Positions 12,625-32,079 of a stretch of DNA of 34,710 nt are shown here, in pieces. The notes under the pieces were generated by a model. That model had not been told where the DNA came from. It saw only the letters and a program-made list of their open reading frames with translations, and searched no databases. Source of the DNA: a virus; the IMG/VR virus record IMGVR_UViG_3300010400_000037, positions 1-34,710 of that record, one strand, 5' to 3'. The translations under genes and the position numbers were made by a program. Numbering within the stretch: the first letter of the stretch is position 1; every line of letters starts with the position of its first letter.

Positions 12625-13221
12625 TTAACGACGACCGAACAGCTGGTCGTGGGTCATTGGTTTAGCGTACGCAGCCTTGATGAGCGTTGCCGCGTTGGTA
12701 TCGTCACTCGTCTTTTCACCAGGAAGCGTCGATGCGGCCACCTTGGTGAGCTTGGTTTCGCCCTCACCGAGACCGTCGGCCTTCGCTGCAGTGCCGTCCT
12801 TACCAACGGCAAACAGTGCAGGCTTTTTACCATCGTTGTCCGTCGCCTTCGTAACACCGGTCTCCACTGCTTTGGTAAGCACTCCTGCGGCAGTTAGTGC
12901 GGCCAACACGTTGTCTGTCACTGACTTGGCGATGCGCGACTCCTGTGCGGTCTGTGCATCTTCAGCTTCCTTAGCTTTAGCAGCCTTCCACATTTTTGCA
13001 GCTTCCTTTTTGTCGTCGTCCGACATATCGTCATCCTCATCGTCTGACTTTTTCTTCTTACCATTGATACCACGATCTGCACCGTGGCCACCCGCTGGAG
13101 GCTCTCCTTGTGCAGCGTTGCTGGATTCTGGTCCGGCTCCAGCCGTTCCGTTGGTTACAGTTGCGCCACGCTTGGAGCCTTCGCTCTGAATGGCGTCTTT
13201 CTTAACCTCTTCATCAGCCAT
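12625..13221 (-). CDS. Possible nested in-frame scaffold protein (internal start)
   Basis: Inside the protease/scaffold gene an in-frame ATG at 13221 is preceded by GAGGTAAC (13226-13233), a near-ideal ribosome site at good spacing. Translation from here would give 198 residues: MADEEVKKDAIQSEG, the acidic DDEDDD stretch, the helix KKEAAKMWKAAKAKEAEDA and the C-terminal tail. Separate scaffold made from an internal start is known for lambda Nu3 within gene C. Here it is inferred from the ribosome site alone. Confidence 0.5.
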   Translation of the reverse strand: MADEEVKKDAIQSEGSKRGATVTNGTAGAGPESSNAAQGEPPAGGHGADRGINGKKKKSDDEDDDMSDDDKKEAAKMWKAAKAKEAEDAQTAQESRIAKSVTDNVLAALTAAGVLTKAVETGVTKATDNDGKKPALFAVGKDGTAAKADGLGEGETKLTKVAASTLPGEKTSDDTNAATLIKAAYAKPMTHDQLFGRR

Positions 13222-14061
13222 GTTGGTTACCTCGTTAGCTTTGTCCACCTGCCCGCTAACCTCGTCTTTCTGCATTGACGAGCAGGCAGCACCTAACTTA
13301 CAGACCGTATCATGTACGGACTGAAGCATTGCGAGATCCGAAGCACTGTTGCGAGCACCTCGTTTCTCTAAAATCGTTACGACGGCTTTGTGCACGTCTT
13401 CGTCTGTTGGTTCATCCATCTTGGTCTTCTTGGGCTTCTTAGCCCCCTCCTGATCATAAGCGTTGATGCCACTGGTGGCGGATGTTGGTTGCAGAAATTC
13501 CTTTACAACTTCGTGTACGGCACCAGCCAGCATTGCAACCTCTGTCGCTGCCGACTTAAACATTTTCGGCACAACAGTTCCGTCCTTCTTTTGTATATCG
13601 AAGAACTTGGCTGTTGGGATGCAGGGTCTATCTACCAGACTAACTTCACTGGGGTCGGCAGTATAACGAGTTACGTTTTTGCCAGACATAACATCAGGCC
13701 ACTTACGCTGGTAGGTTCCGCCCATGCTGAACCCTGTGTATACTCCCTCCAGCACTTTGTCCCATTCGTTATTGTCGACCACCTTAGCAGTGACATCGAT
13801 GGCTTTCTCTGCATCGGTAAATCTCATGTCCGTGAGCTTACCTGCTGCAATGTTGCTGTGCATGCCGCGCACATTGCCTAGAGACTTGCCACCACTATCC
13901 GCCATGATCTGTGAAGACCATCGCTGGAAGTTGGCTTTACTGCTGTTGTAATCAAACACTTCGTCGGCGTGATCTACTACTTCGTGCGCAATACGCCCGT
14001 AGACGAGGCGTTTTTCCTCGTCGACTTTAGTAATAGGCACGAATACGTTGGCGTTACTCAT
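12625..14061 (-). CDS. Capsid maturation protease with C-terminal scaffold (XkdF-like)
   Basis: A 478-residue fusion. Residues 1-155 form the XkdF/prohead-protease-like domain: KRLVYGRIAHEVVDHADEVF, RGMHSNIAAGK with His68, GVYTGFSMGGTYQ with Ser112, and ADPSEVSLVDRPCIPTAKFF, the conserved exit strand. His68 and Ser112 are the likely catalytic pair, as in herpesvirus-type assembly proteases. Residues 190-478 are charged and low-complexity, with SDDEDDDMSDDDKKEAAKMW, a long helix and a final Ala/Lys region. This is the expected scaffold delta domain that is cleaved away during maturation. It lies directly before the capsid gene. Confidence 0.88.
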   Translation of the reverse strand: MSNANVFVPITKVDEEKRLVYGRIAHEVVDHADEVFDYNSSKANFQRWSSQIMADSGGKSLGNVRGMHSNIAAGKLTDMRFTDAEKAIDVTAKVVDNNEWDKVLEGVYTGFSMGGTYQRKWPDVMSGKNVTRYTADPSEVSLVDRPCIPTAKFFDIQKKDGTVVPKMFKSAATEVAMLAGAVHEVVKEFLQPTSATSGINAYDQEGAKKPKKTKMDEPTDEDVHKAVVTILEKRGARNSASDLAMLQSVHDTVCKLGAACSSMQKDEVSGQVDKANEVTNMADEEVKKDAIQSEGSKRGATVTNGTAGAGPESSNAAQGEPPAGGHGADRGINGKKKKSDDEDDDMSDDDKKEAAKMWKAAKAKEAEDAQTAQESRIAKSVTDNVLAALTAAGVLTKAVETGVTKATDNDGKKPALFAVGKDGTAAKADGLGEGETKLTKVAASTLPGEKTSDDTNAATLIKAAYAKPMTHDQLFGRR

Positions 14062-14082
14062 AACTTGATACCTGATATTATA

Positions 14083-15513
14083 CTAAGTTGATTCGTTACC
14101 CATCTGCGGTTTCGCAGGCCGCGTAGTATCGCCATTGCGTAACCACTCTTTAAACTGTTCCATGGTCATACGTGTTATGTTGCCTAGCCCTTTCCATCCA
14201 GGTTGATACTGTTCCAAGTACGCACTACGTGCACGAATTTCGTCGGGCCAACCAACCAAACACTTATGTTCATCGAACTTGCCATCGATATATTGATCCA
14301 CAACCCATACGGGGCCGCCATAGCCATCGTCCATGCCAACACACACGAGACAATCAACGTGATCGCCGTCGGCACCCTCGGTTCGTCGGATATATCCGTA
14401 GTGGTGAGTAAGTTGGCTAATCCAGGGTGTACCATCAGGGGCGACTCCACGACGAACGGACTGGGCAGGGTTTTCGATGGTAATATCAAGTCCGCTAACA
14501 TTGATGTGTCCCATCCTGTAGTTGCCAGCACTCAGTTGCGCCGGGCTCGGTTGGTTTCGTAAGTTAAGGCTGGACGTTGCTGCCTCGTGTGCTGGCGCAT
14601 CGACCTGCGCTTTAGCCACCTTGCTGGCTTCTGCCTCCTCATCACTTTCGTCATCCGACATGTCATCCAACAGATCTTCGGCGTCGGGATCGTCAGCATA
14701 CACGGCTTCGAAATCGCATTGACAGTTAGGATGGCTAGGAGGCCACACATCCCCGCTGGACCAAGCGTCATCAAATGGTATAACATCTTCATCGGCGTTT
14801 TCGTTACACTCATCATCGAAGTTATGATCGTCGCTTAGCAACCAACGCTTTCCAACGGCTCCGGCTTCACGACTCGCCTTGGTGTGGCCCGCGACGTCCG
14901 CAAATGCAAGTTCCGTACGCGCAATCGTAGCTGCTCGTTCTTCAGAGAATGCATAGCTATCCATGAGAGTTTTCGCAAACTCCGCATTCGTTTGACCGTC
15001 CTCGATCGCCTGTGCAAGCGAACTGCGTAGCATGTCGCGTGTACTATCCGAAATGTCAGTGACCAACTCCGCCCCGCGCTCTTCGGCGTAGTCTCGCGCG
15101 TCTTTACTGAATATATCGAACGATATGTTCGCGCCACTTGCATCCCACTCCACACGTGCCGCATCTTCAAACTGTCGTGTTAGATCATCAGCAACTGCAT
15201 CGTCGACGTCAGTCCAATCAGCAGAGTCCACAGCTTCGTCGACAATACTTTTCTTGCGCTTAGCTTTTCCAAGTGTTGCACCGTGCTCGACATGCTTACT
15301 GATCTGTAGACCTATCTTCTGCAGTGTGCCCAACACGCTTCGCTGTAATGTATTGACGTGAGGAGCGATACGTCTTGCCAGTGGGGTTTCCGTACCACGC
15401 TGCTTTGCGAAATTTCTGGGAACGCGCGCTCCCACCTCCTTTGCCACCGTTGGGCTTACCAAGAGTTGGTTTCTGCCCTGGCTTTTTCGGTTGTCCAGGT
15501 TTTGGCGGCCCAC
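14083..15513 (-). CDS. SPP1 gp7/Mu F-like minor head protein fused to InPase-like domain
   Basis: The frame gives 476 residues from a GTG at 15513, overlapping the portal by 218 bases. No in-frame ATG exists before residue 161, so a non-ATG start is certain but its position is not; a GTG/TTG pair near residues 60-61 is another option. Residues about 150-270 are the SPP1 gp7/Mu F head-morphogenesis domain: SEERAATIARTELAFADVAG, a KRWLLSDDHNFDDEC segment and HPNCQCDF. Residues 331-440 match the pyrophosphatase-like (InPase) domain of polyvalent proteins: NYRMGHINVSGLDITIEN, HYGYIRRTEGADGDHVDCLV and DQYIDGKFDEHKCLVGWP. An acidic linker (about 273-298) joins them. The fusion may be delivered into the host with DNA. 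Confidence 0.82.
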   Translation of the reverse strand: MGRQNLDNRKSQGRNQLLVSPTVAKEVGARVPRNFAKQRGTETPLARRIAPHVNTLQRSVLGTLQKIGLQISKHVEHGATLGKAKRKKSIVDEAVDSADWTDVDDAVADDLTRQFEDAARVEWDASGANISFDIFSKDARDYAEERGAELVTDISDSTRDMLRSSLAQAIEDGQTNAEFAKTLMDSYAFSEERAATIARTELAFADVAGHTKASREAGAVGKRWLLSDDHNFDDECNENADEDVIPFDDAWSSGDVWPPSHPNCQCDFEAVYADDPDAEDLLDDMSDDESDEEAEASKVAKAQVDAPAHEAATSSLNLRNQPSPAQLSAGNYRMGHINVSGLDITIENPAQSVRRGVAPDGTPWISQLTHHYGYIRRTEGADGDHVDCLVCVGMDDGYGGPVWVVDQYIDGKFDEHKCLVGWPDEIRARSAYLEQYQPGWKGLGNITRMTMEQFKEWLRNGDTTRPAKPQMGNEST

Positions 15514-16897
15514 CGGGTTTATCCACGCTCATAGGATCAGGTGGTGTTGGATTCATCATTTCAAATGCTTCACCACTAACGAACTTCTCCACAGGGATCG
15601 GGCCTTTAGCTGTCCATATCATCGGAGGAACGCCAAGCTTCTCCATTCCCATGCGATCACGTACGTCGTCAATGCTCCAAACACCATGCTCTACATATCC
15701 AACATCGATAACCTGTTGCTGAGCTGCATCTTGCTCTTCGTCCATGTTCCACATGAACTCAACACCGTCCAATTTTAGACACTGTTTGATGATCTGATCA
15801 AACATGTCCTTTAGATAGTCGAGCAGTGGTTGCAAGCCTTCCTCGCGCGCGGCGGTCTGTGCTGTTTCAGCTGTAGCACGATTGACCTGTTTAACGAAAG
15901 GTGTTGGACTAACACTAAAAGCGTAGCAAATGATACGAATCAACCATTCGTCAAACTCACTTTTTAATAGCGCTTCCGAATCTTTCAGCTGCAATATTTT
16001 ACTGGCGTCGTTAGGCACAAACATCATCTGTCTACGTGCGCCAGTATCGCCCTCAAACATCGCATTCCACCCCGATTGAAACGAGGCAATTTGTTCAGGA
16101 GTCCATGTATCAGGCACGCCAGCTATAGCTTCCGGAATATTACCTTGTGTGAAGAACTGTAGTTGGCTGATTTCACGCCGCAGTCCGATGTTAACAGTCA
16201 TCAACACCTGTTCTACAGGACTGTTGCCGTACACCGTGTTACTGCGCGGATTACGCATGAAGTACATCAGCTCATCTTTCTTATAGTCCGATGTCGGCAC
16301 ACCGTGCAGTATCTGTCGATACGCAGGCAATGGCGGTTCAGGTGTTCGACCCGACTCATCAATAAACTTCATAATCGTAGCAGGGTCCACAGACTCTAAT
16401 CGTTGTAACGTACTTCCTTTGTACACCGGCCAGAATACGTTGGCATCCAATACGAAATTATCATCCAATACTTTACGCAACCATGTATGCCAAGTTAATC
16501 GGCCATCAGGCATCTTAAAGAATGCTCGTGCCTGATCTATCTTGGCTTCCAATTCTTTTTCCGGAACCTTCTTTTCCGTCGATTCTTCGGTTGCAACGAT
16601 AGCCCAATCGAACGCTGCAATCTGATCTTTGCGCGTTTCAATAACCAACTTCAACAGGTCATACCCGTCGGCTAACCTGCGCAGCTCTTCAAAACTAATA
16701 CCGCTTTCGCGCTTAGGGCGAATATCGATATTGAAGCCAGGACGATAATCGAACGCGCGGCCTGCTGTCTGCGGGGCTTGTCCAGCGATTGGCGTCTGTG
16801 GCGAAAACCACCCACTGCTAGTACCGAAACCGTAGTTCATTACCTGCGTCATTCGCTTAAACCACGACAGGTTGCTATTGAGATCTTTAGCTGCCAT
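15296..16897 (-). CDS. Portal protein
   Basis: A 533-residue portal with GGA before its ATG. Clear family segments include GISFEELRRLADGYDLLKLV, ETRKDQIAAFDWAIVA, the wing strands YKGSTLQRLESVDPATIMKF and NTVYGNSPVEQVLMTVNIGL. The stem/clip-region FDEWLIRIICYAFSVSPTPF and HGVWSIDDVRDRMGMEKLGV are typical of HK97/SPP1-class portals. The last 90 residues are a Pro/Gly/Lys-rich tail that overlaps the start of the next gene in another frame and is probably disordered. Twelve copies would form the DNA-entry vertex docking the terminase. Confidence 0.93.
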   Translation of the reverse strand: MAAKDLNSNLSWFKRMTQVMNYGFGTSSGWFSPQTPIAGQAPQTAGRAFDYRPGFNIDIRPKRESGISFEELRRLADGYDLLKLVIETRKDQIAAFDWAIVATEESTEKKVPEKELEAKIDQARAFFKMPDGRLTWHTWLRKVLDDNFVLDANVFWPVYKGSTLQRLESVDPATIMKFIDESGRTPEPPLPAYRQILHGVPTSDYKKDELMYFMRNPRSNTVYGNSPVEQVLMTVNIGLRREISQLQFFTQGNIPEAIAGVPDTWTPEQIASFQSGWNAMFEGDTGARRQMMFVPNDASKILQLKDSEALLKSEFDEWLIRIICYAFSVSPTPFVKQVNRATAETAQTAAREEGLQPLLDYLKDMFDQIIKQCLKLDGVEFMWNMDEEQDAAQQQVIDVGYVEHGVWSIDDVRDRMGMEKLGVPPMIWTAKGPIPVEKFVSGEAFEMMNPTPPDPMSVDKPGGPPKPGQPKKPGQKPTLGKPNGGKGGGSARSQKFRKAAWYGNPTGKTYRSSRQYITAKRVGHTAEDRSTDQ

Positions 16898-24648: not shown

Positions 24649-24971
24649 ACGGGGTCGTGGCGCTCGTAGCCCACGCCTCCCTTTTCGTTACATGACACTT
24701 CCACTCGCTCACTGCGTACTGCACTGTACGCCATCAGCATCAACTGATCTGATGCTATCTTGTTTGACTTATCGAAGCGCAACAAGCGACCATCCGCCAT
24801 CGTCATATATACAACGACAATCATGTTGCATTGTGTGACGACAACACTGGTCACCGGATGACCTTCGACCTTCGGGGCGTTGAGTTCGATGGGAACTTCT
24901 GCGGCAGCGCATTTTCCCATTACGAAACCAACAGCCACTGCTGTGAGTAACATGGATATTATATACTTCAC
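24645..24971 (-). CDS. Small secreted or periplasmic protein
   Basis: A 108-residue protein starting at GTG in a GTGA overlap with the large terminase stop; GGAAGGG is upstream. The N-terminus MKYIISMLLTAVAVGFVMG then KCAAAEV is a classic Sec signal with A-x-A at 22-24, so about 84 residues should be exported. The mature part has two Cys and beta-type segments (VTSVVVTQCNMIVVVYMTMA, SERVEVSCNEKGGVGYERH), perhaps a single disulfide-bonded domain. It could be a periplasmic superinfection or lysis accessory; no family recognised. Confidence 0.65.
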   Translation of the reverse strand: MKYIISMLLTAVAVGFVMGKCAAAEVPIELNAPKVEGHPVTSVVVTQCNMIVVVYMTMADGRLLRFDKSNKIASDQLMLMAYSAVRSERVEVSCNEKGGVGYERHDPV

Positions 24972-26392
24972 TGTTTTTGACCCTTCCCGTTTGACGGGCG
25001 TAGCATTTGGAATATAGCAGGCTGCGATATGCCTGTTTGTTTTTGCGTATGAATAGTCGTACTGCCCACCTTGTTGGGTATGGCAGCCAAGCGAGCTTGT
25101 TCTTCTTCGCGTTCTTTCTTCTTGTTGGCCAGGAATGCGAGTAATCCGCTTCCAGCTTGTTTTATCATCGGTGCGAGCGCGTAACGCATCGCATCCCAGA
25201 TGTGGTTATGTTTGTCTTCTACTTCGGCCTTGACATCTCCTGTTAATTTGTCTATCTTGAAACTGTACAGTCTGGCTTCCTCGGCCGCGTGGATGCACCG
25301 AGGATGTATGACGATCTGTTCAAACTGTCGTAAGAATGCGATTCCATCTTCGACGCTGCCATCCCACTTTTCGACGGCCACGATCTCAGGGTAACCGTGT
25401 CTCTGCATATAGGAGATGGTTTCGGGGCGTGCGCTGTCAGCACGAGTGCGATACTTACGGCTATTGGGCATAGCATTATCGAACAGATCAGTAGTCTTGT
25501 CGATATCGCATCCGACTGCGTATGCTTCGTACTCGATATACAGTCGGGTCCCATATATCCAACATCGAACGAGGGTGGTTGGATCCTTAGCGAATCCCCA
25601 GTCTGCTCCCTGATATGGGCCATCCCAATCTGCTGCAGGATCGAAAGCTTCGATGACATACTTGCCTCGCATTATCTGTGAGTCAGAGTTAGTACGGCAC
25701 TCGCCTTCCCAAACATGCTCATAAGCAGCGGCGTCTACACGCGCCAAGTAGTCCTTTTCCTTGCGTAGCTCTTCGGGGAACCAGGGATTGTCACGCCAGG
25801 ACATCTTAATGATGTGGGCGTCATCACCTAACTCCTTGATGTTCTTAACGAAGCGCTTGTAGGTTGGATCGTCTTCAGCATCGGGATTGAACGTTATCCA
25901 TATTTCAGACCCTGGCTTACGCAGTGTTGGTATCAGCACTTCCCAGCTACGGTCGCTGACCTTTTCTGCTTCTTCAACCCAAGCTATATCGATGCCCTCC
26001 ATGGACTTGATCTTCGTTACATTGTTATGCAGTCCCTCGAAAACAAACTCGCTTCCCCAAAGCGTCTTAATAGATCTGTCTGTTATGTCAAAGTACGAAC
26101 GAAACCCCATCAGCTCTATCTGCGACTCTAACAGATGATGAACTGACTCTTTAATGGAGTTCTGAAACTCACGGCAACATAACACACGGATCTGCTCTGA
26201 CTTAGGACGACCAACGAGTTGGATCATCTTAATGATCAAAGCACGAGCAAAGTTCCAACTCTTGGCGCTACCTCTTCCTCCATATGCGCCCTTGTAGCGC
26301 TTGGGCTTAAATAGATACTTCAGCTTCGGCGGAAAACGAACTACTGTGGGCGCAGTAGCGCGTGGAGCCCATTGTACATCCTCTGTACTCAC
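24968..26392 (-). CDS. terL: Terminase large subunit (PBSX/Terminase_3 type)
   Basis: A 474-residue packaging motor starting at GTG, with GGAG upstream. The ATPase half has Walker A GGRGSAKSW at 38-46 (Lys44), Walker B DIAWVEEAE at 135-143 and coupling motif WITFNPD at 165-171. The RNase-H-like nuclease half shows Asp264 in GADWGFAKDPT, Asp319 in ADSARPETI and Asp400 in HIWDAMRYAL, the metal-binding triad. It pumps DNA through the portal and cuts it. Its closest relatives are in the PBSX/SPP1 (Terminase_3) group, which often package by headful, though this cannot be told here. Confidence 0.96.
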   Translation of the reverse strand: MSTEDVQWAPRATAPTVVRFPPKLKYLFKPKRYKGAYGGRGSAKSWNFARALIIKMIQLVGRPKSEQIRVLCCREFQNSIKESVHHLLESQIELMGFRSYFDITDRSIKTLWGSEFVFEGLHNNVTKIKSMEGIDIAWVEEAEKVSDRSWEVLIPTLRKPGSEIWITFNPDAEDDPTYKRFVKNIKELGDDAHIIKMSWRDNPWFPEELRKEKDYLARVDAAAYEHVWEGECRTNSDSQIMRGKYVIEAFDPAADWDGPYQGADWGFAKDPTTLVRCWIYGTRLYIEYEAYAVGCDIDKTTDLFDNAMPNSRKYRTRADSARPETISYMQRHGYPEIVAVEKWDGSVEDGIAFLRQFEQIVIHPRCIHAAEEARLYSFKIDKLTGDVKAEVEDKHNHIWDAMRYALAPMIKQAGSGLLAFLANKKKEREEEQARLAAIPNKVGSTTIHTQKQTGISQPAIFQMLRPSNGKGQKQ

Positions 26393-26394
26393 AG

Positions 26395-26946
26395 TCAGTG
26401 TTGCTCCAGCAGTTTGCCTATGTCTTCTGAGTCATCATCTTCCGTACCAAACGCTACTATGACGTTGGGCGCCTGGATGGGATTACCATTAGGATCGGCT
26501 AGATTAACCTGGGATGCCCAACGACCACGAGTCTTCAATGCGAATATAGTGGCAGATATATTGCCACGCTTTATATGCTCAGTCAGTTTATCCGCGCACC
26601 ACGTCACATATAATTCAGTACCGATGTGCAATTCCATTGCGAAATACTTACGTAATGTTTCCGGCTTGATAGAGTTACCGTATCTAGACTCTATTAGACT
26701 ACAGATCTGATCAACTGTCATTCCATATGCAACGAGCTTACGAACAAAGTCTCTATCCCCCTTCGTTGGTTCGTATGGCGGGCGACCCGGTCCACGCTCT
26801 ATTTCAAATCCTGACGTGTGAGGGGCTTTACGTGCGGCTTTGGGCAGTGTGTTACGTGGACCTTTGCGCGTACCGTTATTCTTTGCCTTTACTCCTGTGT
26901 AGTTTTTGCTCGGGGTTCGTTGGCCCTTCTTATGGAACTTGGGCAT
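26395..26946 (-). CDS. Terminase small subunit
   Basis: A 183-residue protein just before the large subunit. The first 60 residues are basic and Lys/Arg/Asn-rich (KKGQRTPSKNYTGVKAKNNG). Residues 70-105 contain a helix-turn-helix, MTVDQICSLIESRYG then IKPETLRKYFAMELHIGTE, the usual small-terminase DNA-recognition domain. A helical oligomerisation part follows (CADKLTEHIKRGNISATIFA) and an acidic tail (GTEDDDSEDIGKLLEQH), which commonly contacts the large subunit. The order small-then-large terminase in the same direction is standard. Confidence 0.9.
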   Translation of the reverse strand: MPKFHKKGQRTPSKNYTGVKAKNNGTRKGPRNTLPKAARKAPHTSGFEIERGPGRPPYEPTKGDRDFVRKLVAYGMTVDQICSLIESRYGNSIKPETLRKYFAMELHIGTELYVTWCADKLTEHIKRGNISATIFALKTRGRWASQVNLADPNGNPIQAPNVIVAFGTEDDDSEDIGKLLEQH

Positions 26947-27376
26947 GTACTCTAAACTCCGTTGCTAATTCTGGCTCACTGATGGGCAATGCGGGCAACA
27001 AGCGCTCTCCTCTATACCATTCACTCAGTGCTCGACGCGAATAGTGATTTCTGCGCAATAGCCCGCGAGGCTCACACTCTGAACAAACAACCAGGAAATC
27101 ATCGAACGGACAACCGTGAAACGCAACCCTATGAATGGTCCATGCTCCACAGCCTATGCACTTCTGTTTCTCATCTGGCTTATCGATGTAAGTTAGTTCG
27201 GCCTTGGCACAGAAGTCAGAAGCATGGTGTAGAACAGCTCGCAATTGAGTGCGGTGTCCTTCACACTTACCCTCTATACACGGAGCAACCGCATGCATTT
27301 CCTTAGTACTCGTTATGTTGGTCTCAGCCCATCTCCATACACCACGAATCAAACTCGGATATTGAAACTTTGTCAT
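26930..27376 (-). CDS. Cys-cluster zinc protein leading the late operon, unknown
   Basis: I start at the ATG at 27376 (148 residues) with GGGGG nine bases upstream; an in-frame GTG five codons earlier is less likely. It is the first gene of the leftward block. The core CIGCGAWTIHRVAFHGCPFD followed by CSECEPRGLLRRNHYSRRAL gives CxxC and CxxC pairs that should bind zinc. An earlier CIEGKCEGH may form another site. It does not follow the HNH nuclease order, so that reading is not supported. It could regulate late transcription or assist packaging. Confidence 0.6.
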   Translation of the reverse strand: MTKFQYPSLIRGVWRWAETNITSTKEMHAVAPCIEGKCEGHRTQLRAVLHHASDFCAKAELTYIDKPDEKQKCIGCGAWTIHRVAFHGCPFDDFLVVCSECEPRGLLRRNHYSRRALSEWYRGERLLPALPISEPELATEFRVHAQVP

Positions 27377-27478
27377 GATTTGACCCCCCACAGTATCCAG
27401 CTTGTAGGCACGCCATAATGATATAAGTATGGAGTTTTTCGCCTCTACGGATTCTATCTATCAAAGAATCTTCACACC

Positions 27479-27496
27479 AACATAACGAGTTATGTT
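27479..27496. promoter_or_regulatory. Operator-like dyad AACATAAC-GA-GTTATGTT
   Basis: An 8-bp perfect inverted repeat with a 2-base spacer between the leftward terminase gene and the SOS box. The spacing and length fit a dimeric helix-turn-helix repressor site. No repressor gene is seen in the window. Confidence 0.5.
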
Positions 27497-27504
27497 AGCA
27501 CCAC

Positions 27505-27524
27505 TACTGTAAATGAATACAGTA
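27505..27524. promoter_or_regulatory. LexA (SOS) box
   Basis: The 20-mer TACTGTAAATGAATACAGTA has both half sites TACTG and CAGTA intact, with CTGT-N8-ACAG, the E. coli-type LexA consensus. The chance of such a match in a given 800-bp region is low. It lies 9 bases before the first iteron and would place the control region under host DNA-damage control. Confidence 0.75.
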
Positions 27525-27533
27525 CCAAAATTT

Positions 27534-27726
27534 ATGCGCCCAGGGCATGCGCCAATTGGCGCATAGGTTTTTTATGCGCCAATGCGCCAATGCGCTCATC
27601 TCTTTTTCCAAATTAAAACCTGTAGCAGATAGCCTACAAATCAACAAAATGCGCCGATTTCCGCAGCATATAGGCGCATAAAATAATCCTTAAATCTCCT
27701 GGAATGCGCCCATGCGCTAATGCGCC
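27534..27726. repeat. ATGCGCC iteron cluster, putative replication origin
   Basis: Nine exact ATGCGCC copies: 27534, 27547, 27574, 27582, 27649, 27704 and 27720 on the plus strand, and 27558-27564 and 27673-27679 reversed. Two further ATGCGC copies (27590, 27712) complete two triplets at 8-bp spacing: 27574/27582/27590 and 27704/27712/27720. Positions 27547-27564 form an 18-bp perfect palindrome. The triplets flank an AT-rich segment (27596-27648 and 27680-27703). This looks like an iteron-type origin or a cooperative operator. Confidence 0.75.
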
Positions 27727-27830
27727 GTTAAACCCTTTAATACACATGTGCGCCTACATACACACGGAGGCACGCCCCTTATGCGAGATCTAGCTCATAT
27801 ATACCTGAAGTCTTAAGCCGGGGTGAAGGG

Positions 27831-27866
27831 GTGTTGGTTTTGGTGTTGGTTTTGGTGTTGGTTTGC
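27831..27866 (+). repeat. Tandem 12-bp repeat GTGTTGGTTTTG, three copies
   Basis: Two exact copies and a third ending in GC follow head to tail. They abut the -35 hexamer of the rightward promoter candidate. The strand is G/T only (purine-poor on the other strand), so it could unwind easily or bind a single-strand protein. It may also be simple slippage. Confidence 0.75.
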
Positions 27867-27891
27867 AATGGAAGCTAGGCTGTGGCATAAT
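27863..27891 (+). promoter_or_regulatory. Sigma-70-like promoter for the rightward genes
   Basis: TTGCAA (27863-27868), a 17-base spacer and CATAAT (27886-27891) match 4/6 and 5/6 of the consensus. Transcription would start near 27898, giving a leader of about 315 bases before the primase-helicase gene. It is the best rightward promoter I can see in the gap. Confidence 0.5.
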
Positions 27892-28212
27892 GCGCAGCAA
27901 GCTACGGTACCCAAGTGGCCAAGCCAGCCCAGCCAGGGCAGGCAGGGCCAGCCCAAGCAGCAGCGTGTTCAGGTTCCAAGTGTTGCGCTGTTACGAGTGT
28001 TGGGATGCAAACACCACACGTGGAACGCGGCGAGAGTTTGTTATGTTGGTTGCAATCGCACGTGACCAACACACCGAGCCCTCACGAGTGAGCCGACTGG
28101 CGGCTGTGTATCACCACACTCGCCTGTCGCTCGACATGGCGTTCGTTTGCCTGGGTATCCGTAGCTGGATCTAGGGACGTCGTCAGTCGGTTCACTTGTG
28201 GGGGCTTTTTTG

Positions 28213-30228
28213 ATGCCTAAGAATGATGAGGCTGCGCTGTTAGCAGCAGCGCAAGCAGATCTTGAGCGTTCCGGACTGGACAAAAGTGACTTCAAAAGAC
28301 TGAAGCTGGAGGTACTAACTCGCGACGAAACCGAGTATTTTGTAGGGGAAGCACGCAGTAGTTACAAGATCCCGTACTTTGATATAGCTGGCAAACAGAT
28401 AACCTATGCACGTGTTAGGTTCCTGGAAAATGGCAAAAAGAAGTTCGCCAGTGTAGAAGGGGCGCAAAGATATAGCCAGCCGGCCAATAGCGCACCACAC
28501 GTATATCTACCGCCGTACATTAACTGGCGCACCGTAGCCAAGGATACTACTCAAACCATTGTTATAACCGAGGGCGAAAAGAAAGCAGCGATTGCCTGTA
28601 AGCTCGGCATTCCTTGCATCGCTCTCGGTGGTGTGTGGTCATTCAAGAGTGACAAACGAGATTGGGATCTGCTCCCAGAGTTGCAGGAAATCGACTGGAA
28701 GGACCGGGCCGTGGAAATATGCTATGACAGCGATGTTATGCATAAGGCCCAAGTTAGAATGGCTCTGTCCGCCCTGGCGCAGGAACTTTCCCAAAAGAAA
28801 GCCCCGGGCTCTATTCACTTTGTTTTCTTAGACGCTGAAACTATTAATGATGGCAAAGTGGCCTTGGATGACTACTTGGTTGCCCACGGCGTTGATGGAT
28901 ATAACACACTCCCAAGATCTGAGTACAAAGGCACCGCACGCATACAGGATCTAAATACGAAAGTGTGCTATGTGCTGGCCGAAGAAAAGTATTTCTCCAT
29001 GATCAGTAATAAGTTCTTTCGTAACTTTAGTCATGTGCGAGAGGCCTTCATGCATATGGGGAGTGAAGTTATAGATGGCAAGCGCACCAAGTTGGCCATC
29101 GATCTATGGGGAGAGAACGCCAATAGACGCACCGTGGTGAACGTACAGTACATCCCTGGCGAGCCGGAGATGACCGAAGACAACATTCTCAATATCTGGC
29201 GCCCTTCCAACACTCAGCCCACTAAGAAAAAGCCCTCTAAATGGTTGGAGCTTGTTAACTACATAATGCGTGCGGCACAAAACGCCAAGTGGTTTCTGCA
29301 GTGGCTGGCATACCCTGTGCAGTTCCCAGGCACCAAGCTTCTATCCTCTGTATTCGTACATGGTAAGCAACAAGGTGTCGGTAAAACACTCATCGTTGAT
29401 CCTGTGATGGAGTTTGTTTATGGTAAAGACAACTTTTATCGGCTGGACAATGACGCGCTTCAATCCCAGTTCAACTCATACACCGCGAGACGTCAGTTTG
29501 TGGTTACCAACGAAATCTATCTTTCCAGTTATAAAGATCGTCGCGCAGCAATGGGGCGACTCAAGGATATGATAACCCGTGAAAAGGTTGAGATGCGCGA
29601 GCTATATCAGCCTCGTGTGCGCGTAACGGACTATTGCAACTATTATCTTACATCTCAACATGCTGATGCGCTGGAACTGGAAAAGAACGACCGTCGATTC
29701 TTCGTCATAGAAGCCCCAGAAGAACGTTTGTCGCAAAGCACTTACGATGAGTTTGATAAATGGATACGTGGGGAAGGTGCCGGCGCCGTACTTCACTATC
29801 TACAGAATATCGATCTGAAAGACTTCAATCCTAAGGCTGCGGCACCTAACACGGAATATAAGGATCAGGTCATCGACGTATCGATGAATCACTTCGAAAG
29901 CTTTGTGGAAGATTTGGTTAACGACCCCAAGGATATGTTTACAGCTAATGGCGTGACAAGTGAGTGGCAGCTACGTAAAGCCGAAGACTTGCTGCGCACT
30001 TTCCAGAAGCGTCACCCAGATATTCGCTGGCCCATCACAACTAACAAGTTCGCGAGATATCTTACCGATGCCCGTATACAGAAGCGTAAGGTTCGCCTAT
30101 CACAGGATAGCCCACAGATCACTTTGTATGCTGTGTTGGATACAGAGCAGTGGACCGGTAAGACTAACAAGGATTGGGCGGAGCATTACAAGCAGTTCAG
30201 CACTAAGTTTGGAGGAAAAGGGAAATGA
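28213..30228 (+). CDS. TOPRIM primase (DUF3854) - SF3 helicase (DUF5906) fusion
   Basis: I start at the ATG at 28213 (671 residues) with GGGGG ten bases before; an in-frame GTG five codons earlier overlaps it. Residues about 100-235 resemble the DUF3854 TOPRIM-like domain: VITEGEKKAAIACKLGIPCI (Glu120), LGGVWSFKS and EICYDSDV (Asp172 and Asp174 as metal ligands). Residues about 330-530 are an SF3-type helicase with Walker A HGKQQGVGKT (384-392), Walker B-like FVVTNEIY (428-436), the strand NYYLTSQHAD and arginine finger candidates in NDRRFFVIE. Primase and helicase in one chain would unwind and prime at the phage origin; the iterons next door are the likely target. Confidence 0.9.
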   Translation: MPKNDEAALLAAAQADLERSGLDKSDFKRLKLEVLTRDETEYFVGEARSSYKIPYFDIAGKQITYARVRFLENGKKKFASVEGAQRYSQPANSAPHVYLPPYINWRTVAKDTTQTIVITEGEKKAAIACKLGIPCIALGGVWSFKSDKRDWDLLPELQEIDWKDRAVEICYDSDVMHKAQVRMALSALAQELSQKKAPGSIHFVFLDAETINDGKVALDDYLVAHGVDGYNTLPRSEYKGTARIQDLNTKVCYVLAEEKYFSMISNKFFRNFSHVREAFMHMGSEVIDGKRTKLAIDLWGENANRRTVVNVQYIPGEPEMTEDNILNIWRPSNTQPTKKKPSKWLELVNYIMRAAQNAKWFLQWLAYPVQFPGTKLLSSVFVHGKQQGVGKTLIVDPVMEFVYGKDNFYRLDNDALQSQFNSYTARRQFVVTNEIYLSSYKDRRAAMGRLKDMITREKVEMRELYQPRVRVTDYCNYYLTSQHADALELEKNDRRFFVIEAPEERLSQSTYDEFDKWIRGEGAGAVLHYLQNIDLKDFNPKAAAPNTEYKDQVIDVSMNHFESFVEDLVNDPKDMFTANGVTSEWQLRKAEDLLRTFQKRHPDIRWPITTNKFARYLTDARIQKRKVRLSQDSPQITLYAVLDTEQWTGKTNKDWAEHYKQFSTKFGGKGK

Positions 30229-32053: not shown

Positions 32054-32079
32054 ACGCGCCCCAAAGCCCTCCAAAATGC

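Follow-up and report, generated by a model that had tools for sequence, protein, structure and literature searches.

The virus record analyzed here in full (34,710 bp; the window) raises the question of where its replication begins and which protein opens the DNA there. At 27392-28197, leftward genes for the terminase large subunit, portal, and tail diverge from a rightward primase-helicase gene, and a sequence-only reading of this gap had proposed an iteron-type origin built of ATGCGCC units beside that gene. A DNA search of phage records with the window returned no match. Our analysis supports the proposal, because the place of the array is conserved among relatives and its units turn over, because such arrays accompany the primase-helicase rather than the terminase, and because the protein is predicted to fold as a self-loading helicase with a C-terminal winged helix. 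We conclude that the array is probably a P4/SaPI-type replication origin at which the adjacent primase-helicase opens the DNA via its C-terminal domain. The features discussed below are located in Table 1.

Table 1. Positions of the array, the neighboring genes, and candidate control elements in the window.
Feature	Position	Strand	Details
Terminase large subunit, divergent leftward operon	24968-26392	-	
Iteron array, 12 RTGCGCY units	27534-27754		9 exact ATGCGCC, 2 ATGCGCT, 1 GTGCGCC (27748)
18-bp palindrome ATGCGCCAATTGGCGCAT, two facing units	27547-27564		Exact; followed by a T run; absent in L018
First triplet, 8-bp spacing	27574-27596	+	Units at 27574, 27582, 27590 (ATGCGCT)
AT-rich spacer between unit groups	27597-27648		Candidate unwinding element
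Second triplet, 8-bp spacing	27704-27726	+	Units at 27704, 27712 (ATGCGCT), 27720
Candidate sigma-70 promoter, primase-helicase operon	27863-27891	+	TTGCAA-17-CATAAT; L018 counterpart TTGCAA-17-CACAAT
Leader hairpin, 29-bp stem	28076-28207	+	Arms 28076-28104 and 28179-28207; then a short T-rich stretch and the ATG
Primase-helicase, proposed initiator	28213-30228	+	671 aa; DUF3854 (ITEGE, DSD), DUF5906 helicase (GVGKT), C-terminal winged helix
C-terminal winged-helix part, proposed iteron reader	29848-30138	+	Residues 546-642; predicted

All nine exact ATGCGCC copies reported for the 193 bases at 27534-27726 were found, seven on the forward strand (27534, 27547, 27574, 27582, 27649, 27704, and 27720) and two on the reverse strand (27558 and 27673). 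Across the whole window the heptamer occurs 18 times, with 6.5 copies expected. The highest count of any 7-mer per 193 bp is 9 in the real sequence versus 3 or 4 in 200 dinucleotide-shuffled versions of the window, and the degenerate unit RTGCGCY occurs 12 times in 280 bp where 0.31 is expected. Located ~460 to 680 bp upstream of the primase-helicase gene, the array thus shows what marks an iteron origin, namely, short tandem repeats clustered beyond chance and adjoining a replication gene. The two reported triplets at 8-bp spacing exist, each with one variant unit inside it. The DNA between them, which had been described as AT-rich, is only moderately so, with 68% AT at 27600-27649 and just 56% at 27650-27699, and the GC content of the whole array is 47%. 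A whole-genome GC skew analysis, suggested as a check on the origin, did show a shift at the gap, but gene direction flips there too and confounds it. The gap contains no DnaA box of the form TTWTNCACA, and Rfam gave no match at gathering scores within the window.

A close relative, L018, encodes a primase-helicase 76% identical to that of the window. Most 50-bp blocks of the gap are ~50% alike between the two, and the L018 gap holds 10 RTGCGCY units versus 0.28 expected. The number of units and their mostly forward orientation are kept, as is a 32-bp stretch from 27575 (97% identical); individual unit positions and the palindrome are lost. This palindrome, to which the earlier reading had drawn attention, is exact in the window, and the T run after it resembles an intrinsic terminator; given its absence from L018, we dropped it as a candidate functional core. 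An outlying unit at 32076, previously listed with the array, fared no better: the aligned region of L018 lacks ATGCGCC, and the copy is one of nine scattered through the window where ~6.5 are expected, so that it probably arose by chance. A single unrelated contig, L006, shares the 18-bp palindrome, in one copy; a single 24-bp palindrome (TTAATGCGCCAATTGGCGCATTAA) lies at 1004-1027 of L006 and precedes an ORF. No homology of this contig to the window was detected, and the match is presumably a coincidence.

The position of the array exactly at the divergence point, with the candidate rightward promoter ~110 to 330 bp downstream, would also suit a set of operators, at which a repressor or activator controls both divergent operons while replication starts elsewhere. 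Against this stand the form of the units, which are for the most part single copies repeated directly in tandem at 8 bp, with a sole palindrome that is not conserved, and the near-chance level of unit copies elsewhere in the window. Furthermore, no single candidate regulator was found adjoining the arrays, and the first gene to their left differs among relatives (ParB-N/DUF4417, NusG-like, or unassigned). We therefore regard operators as an unlikely explanation of the array and retain the origin as the probable one.

To place the array among distant relatives, we used 69 nonredundant loci, comprising the window, L018, and relatives with a ~30 to 40% identical protein. A cluster was scored where a single 7-mer occurred five or more times in 220 bp, inside the 900 bp preceding the gene, and other 900-bp windows from the same 69 loci (n = 1010, mostly coding DNA) served as controls. 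Fourteen of the 69 upstream regions passed this threshold compared with 15 of the 1010 controls (Fisher odds ratio, 17; P = 2e-10), a P value that is a guide only because related loci are nonindependent and the controls mostly coding. For the latter reason, the enrichment may in part be a general property of intergenic DNA. The threshold is not reached by most of the 69 loci, and in the syntenic phages ctUtU524, PW916, and AXL_3 the primase comes with no evident array.

The units, which were picked by eye in distant relatives, vary between viruses (GTTCTCAAGTT, ATCTGAAAC, AATTCGGAT, ACTTATAAC, GTGATACA, and others), and all are found in the equivalent place. The arrays share a layout of tandem pairs and triplets, mostly at 7 to 12 bp and in both orientations, with mostly AT-rich spacers. 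Their GC content is 3 to 25 points below that of their own locus, and AT-richness among the repeats is clearer in most relatives than in the window. In four more loci (L046, L059, L060, and L091), the array sits at the divergence point and small genes separate it from the primase. NusG-like genes lie directly left of the array on the reverse strand of L073 (6869-7408) and L019 (6863-7417).

The other conspicuous neighbor is the terminase. Some terminases bind repeats, and in many loci the divergent terminase gene starts 1.1 to 3.3 kb from the primase start, across the array, which could accordingly be a packaging signal (pac or cos) recognized by this enzyme. However, a comparable cluster within 900 bp was present in just 1 of 56 nonredundant loci that encode related terminases (44 to 59% identical) and have no detectable primase of the DUF3854/DUF5906 family, in a scan that reported a single top cluster for each 2.5 kb and could thus hide a weaker one. 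A packaging signal is highly improbable on this evidence. As judged from these sequences, the arrays are associated with the primase-helicase, which is common to all array loci by way of their discovery, and not with the terminase. Two loci yielded separate observations. L213, a contig in which no primase of the DUF3854/DUF5906 family was detected, carries nine close ATACACA copies ~280 bp upstream of the terminase gene. In L003, beyond the window's right end, an ORF at 12809-14476 reads like a MoxR-type AAA+ ATPase (candidate), and another long ORF lies downstream of it (15284-16276).

The protein next to the array has 671 residues, as previously read, and its gene starts with the ATG at 28213. 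DUF3854 carries invariant TEGE and DxD residues, as is typical of TOPRIM primases, and is followed by the DUF5906 helicase, the same order of TOPRIM-type primase motifs and helicase domain that characterizes P4 alpha-like proteins. An AlphaFold2 model (43 sequences) had a mean pLDDT of 90 overall and of 87 for the C-terminal domain alone, the topology of which is that of a winged helix. Foldseek matches were, in order, the C-terminal region of NrS-1, SaPI5 PriRep1 with double-stranded DNA (dsDNA), the SaPI5 primase-helicase, and poxvirus D5/E5, with E values of 1.8e-21 for the NrS-1 helicase region, 2e-10 for SaPI5 PriRep1 with dsDNA (7pds), and 1e-8 for 7ola. The C-terminal domain alone gave weak generic winged-helix matches (best E value, 0.05), and the P4 origin-binding domain was absent among the 50 matches listed for it. 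We also considered whether the unit sequence covaries with the winged helix, but the signal was not domain specific: unit similarity tracks whole-protein similarity, and the C-terminal domain, the recognition helix, and the wing add nothing to it.

Without a domain-specific covariation pointing to the primase-helicase, the units might be bound by another phage protein, for example, a small early protein or the cysteine-rich protein of 26933-27376, which would then load the primase-helicase. Initiators of the lambda O type are such separate proteins. Yet the predicted fold of the primase-helicase is that of self-loading initiator helicases, and of the neighbors checked it alone is common to all array loci, as follows from the way the loci were discovered. 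A separate initiator thus appears quite unlikely, and we favor the primase-helicase itself as the protein that would bind the units.

If the array is an origin opened by this protein, replication would start within it. By analogy with P4 alpha, SaPI Rep, and Cch2 (PMC4234260, PMC7581432), the C-terminal winged-helix domain would bind the ATGCGCC units, and the primase-helicase would assemble into helicase rings, open the AT-rich stretches between units, and prime synthesis itself. Since no DNA polymerase was recognized among the genes examined, the primers would be extended by the host polymerase. Forks leaving the divergent gap would move codirectionally with transcription in each arm.

Between the array and the gene lies the leader hairpin, which is conserved in L018 (7877-7995) and folds as RNA with z scores of -6.4 in the window and -7.7 in L018. 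L011 has a 28-bp stem of unrelated sequence that ends 7 nt before its ATG (5558). The leaders of the window, L018, and L011 all contain stems of 28 to 30 bp ending 6 to 7 nt before the primase-helicase ATG, with a G-rich Shine-Dalgarno-like stretch in the 3' arm. Strong stems (score of at least 32) occur at 28% of the 69 leader positions versus 6.5% of 522 control windows. A different leader is found upstream of the primase gene in 11 relatives (L007, L008, L009, L053, L060, L070, L079, L080, L084, L086, and L087). This candidate structured RNA has a P1 stem of 9 to 16 bp that differs in sequence, CTCAGC in the loop region, and, in almost every case, GCTGRG strands farther downstream that are complementary to it, a possible pseudoknot; an Rfam search of nine of these loci (all but L008 and L060) gave no match at gathering scores.

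Taking array and leader together, we suggest, tentatively and with considerable doubt, a phage family whose primase-helicase acts as its own initiator and whose iteron unit has changed to another many times; the control region would have two parts, an iteron origin upstream and a structured leader RNA linking synthesis of the primase to replication. Self-loading helicases that work at iteron origins are already known; in the open-access literature, we found no description of origins for the DUF3854/DUF5906 phage family. If the array is indeed an origin of this kind, the family would offer ~20 natural initiator/iteron pairs in one protein family for studying the joint change of specificity and origin, and the origins of many uncultured phages would be readable from sequence.

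Several known systems resemble parts of this locus. Nitratiruptor phage NrS-1 shares a homologous helicase region and a terminase ~51% identical to that of the window but differs in its PrimPol domain and its recognition motif TTTGGTTA, which is absent from the array and gap. The GTTGGTTT repeats at 27833-27864 had resembled the NrS-1 site, a lead that we abandoned because TTTGGTTA is absent there; this triple repeat is also not kept in L018. The plasmid pRN1 stem-loop origin and the RSF1010 ssi hairpins likewise place a large stem-loop near a replication gene (PMC4234260), whereas the stem-loop predicted here lies in the leader of the gene and is accompanied by an iteron array. SaPI Rep/PriRep1 and SCCmec Cch2 are D5-type self-loading helicases with short iterons beside the gene, which they bind through their C-terminal domains (PMC7581432), and the predicted fold of our protein matches that of SaPI5 PriRep1 with dsDNA. 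Their iterons are downstream of the gene rather than upstream as here, and SaPI primases are of the archaeo-eukaryotic type, in contrast to the TOPRIM-like motifs of the present protein. P4 alpha is likewise a single protein with a TOPRIM-type primase, a helicase, and a C-terminal winged helix that binds origin repeats (PMC4234260). Neither sequence nor fold comparison gave a match to the P4 origin-binding domain, and, unlike in P4, the array described here lies directly before the gene, in the divergent gap of a tailed-phage genome that carries structural genes of its own.
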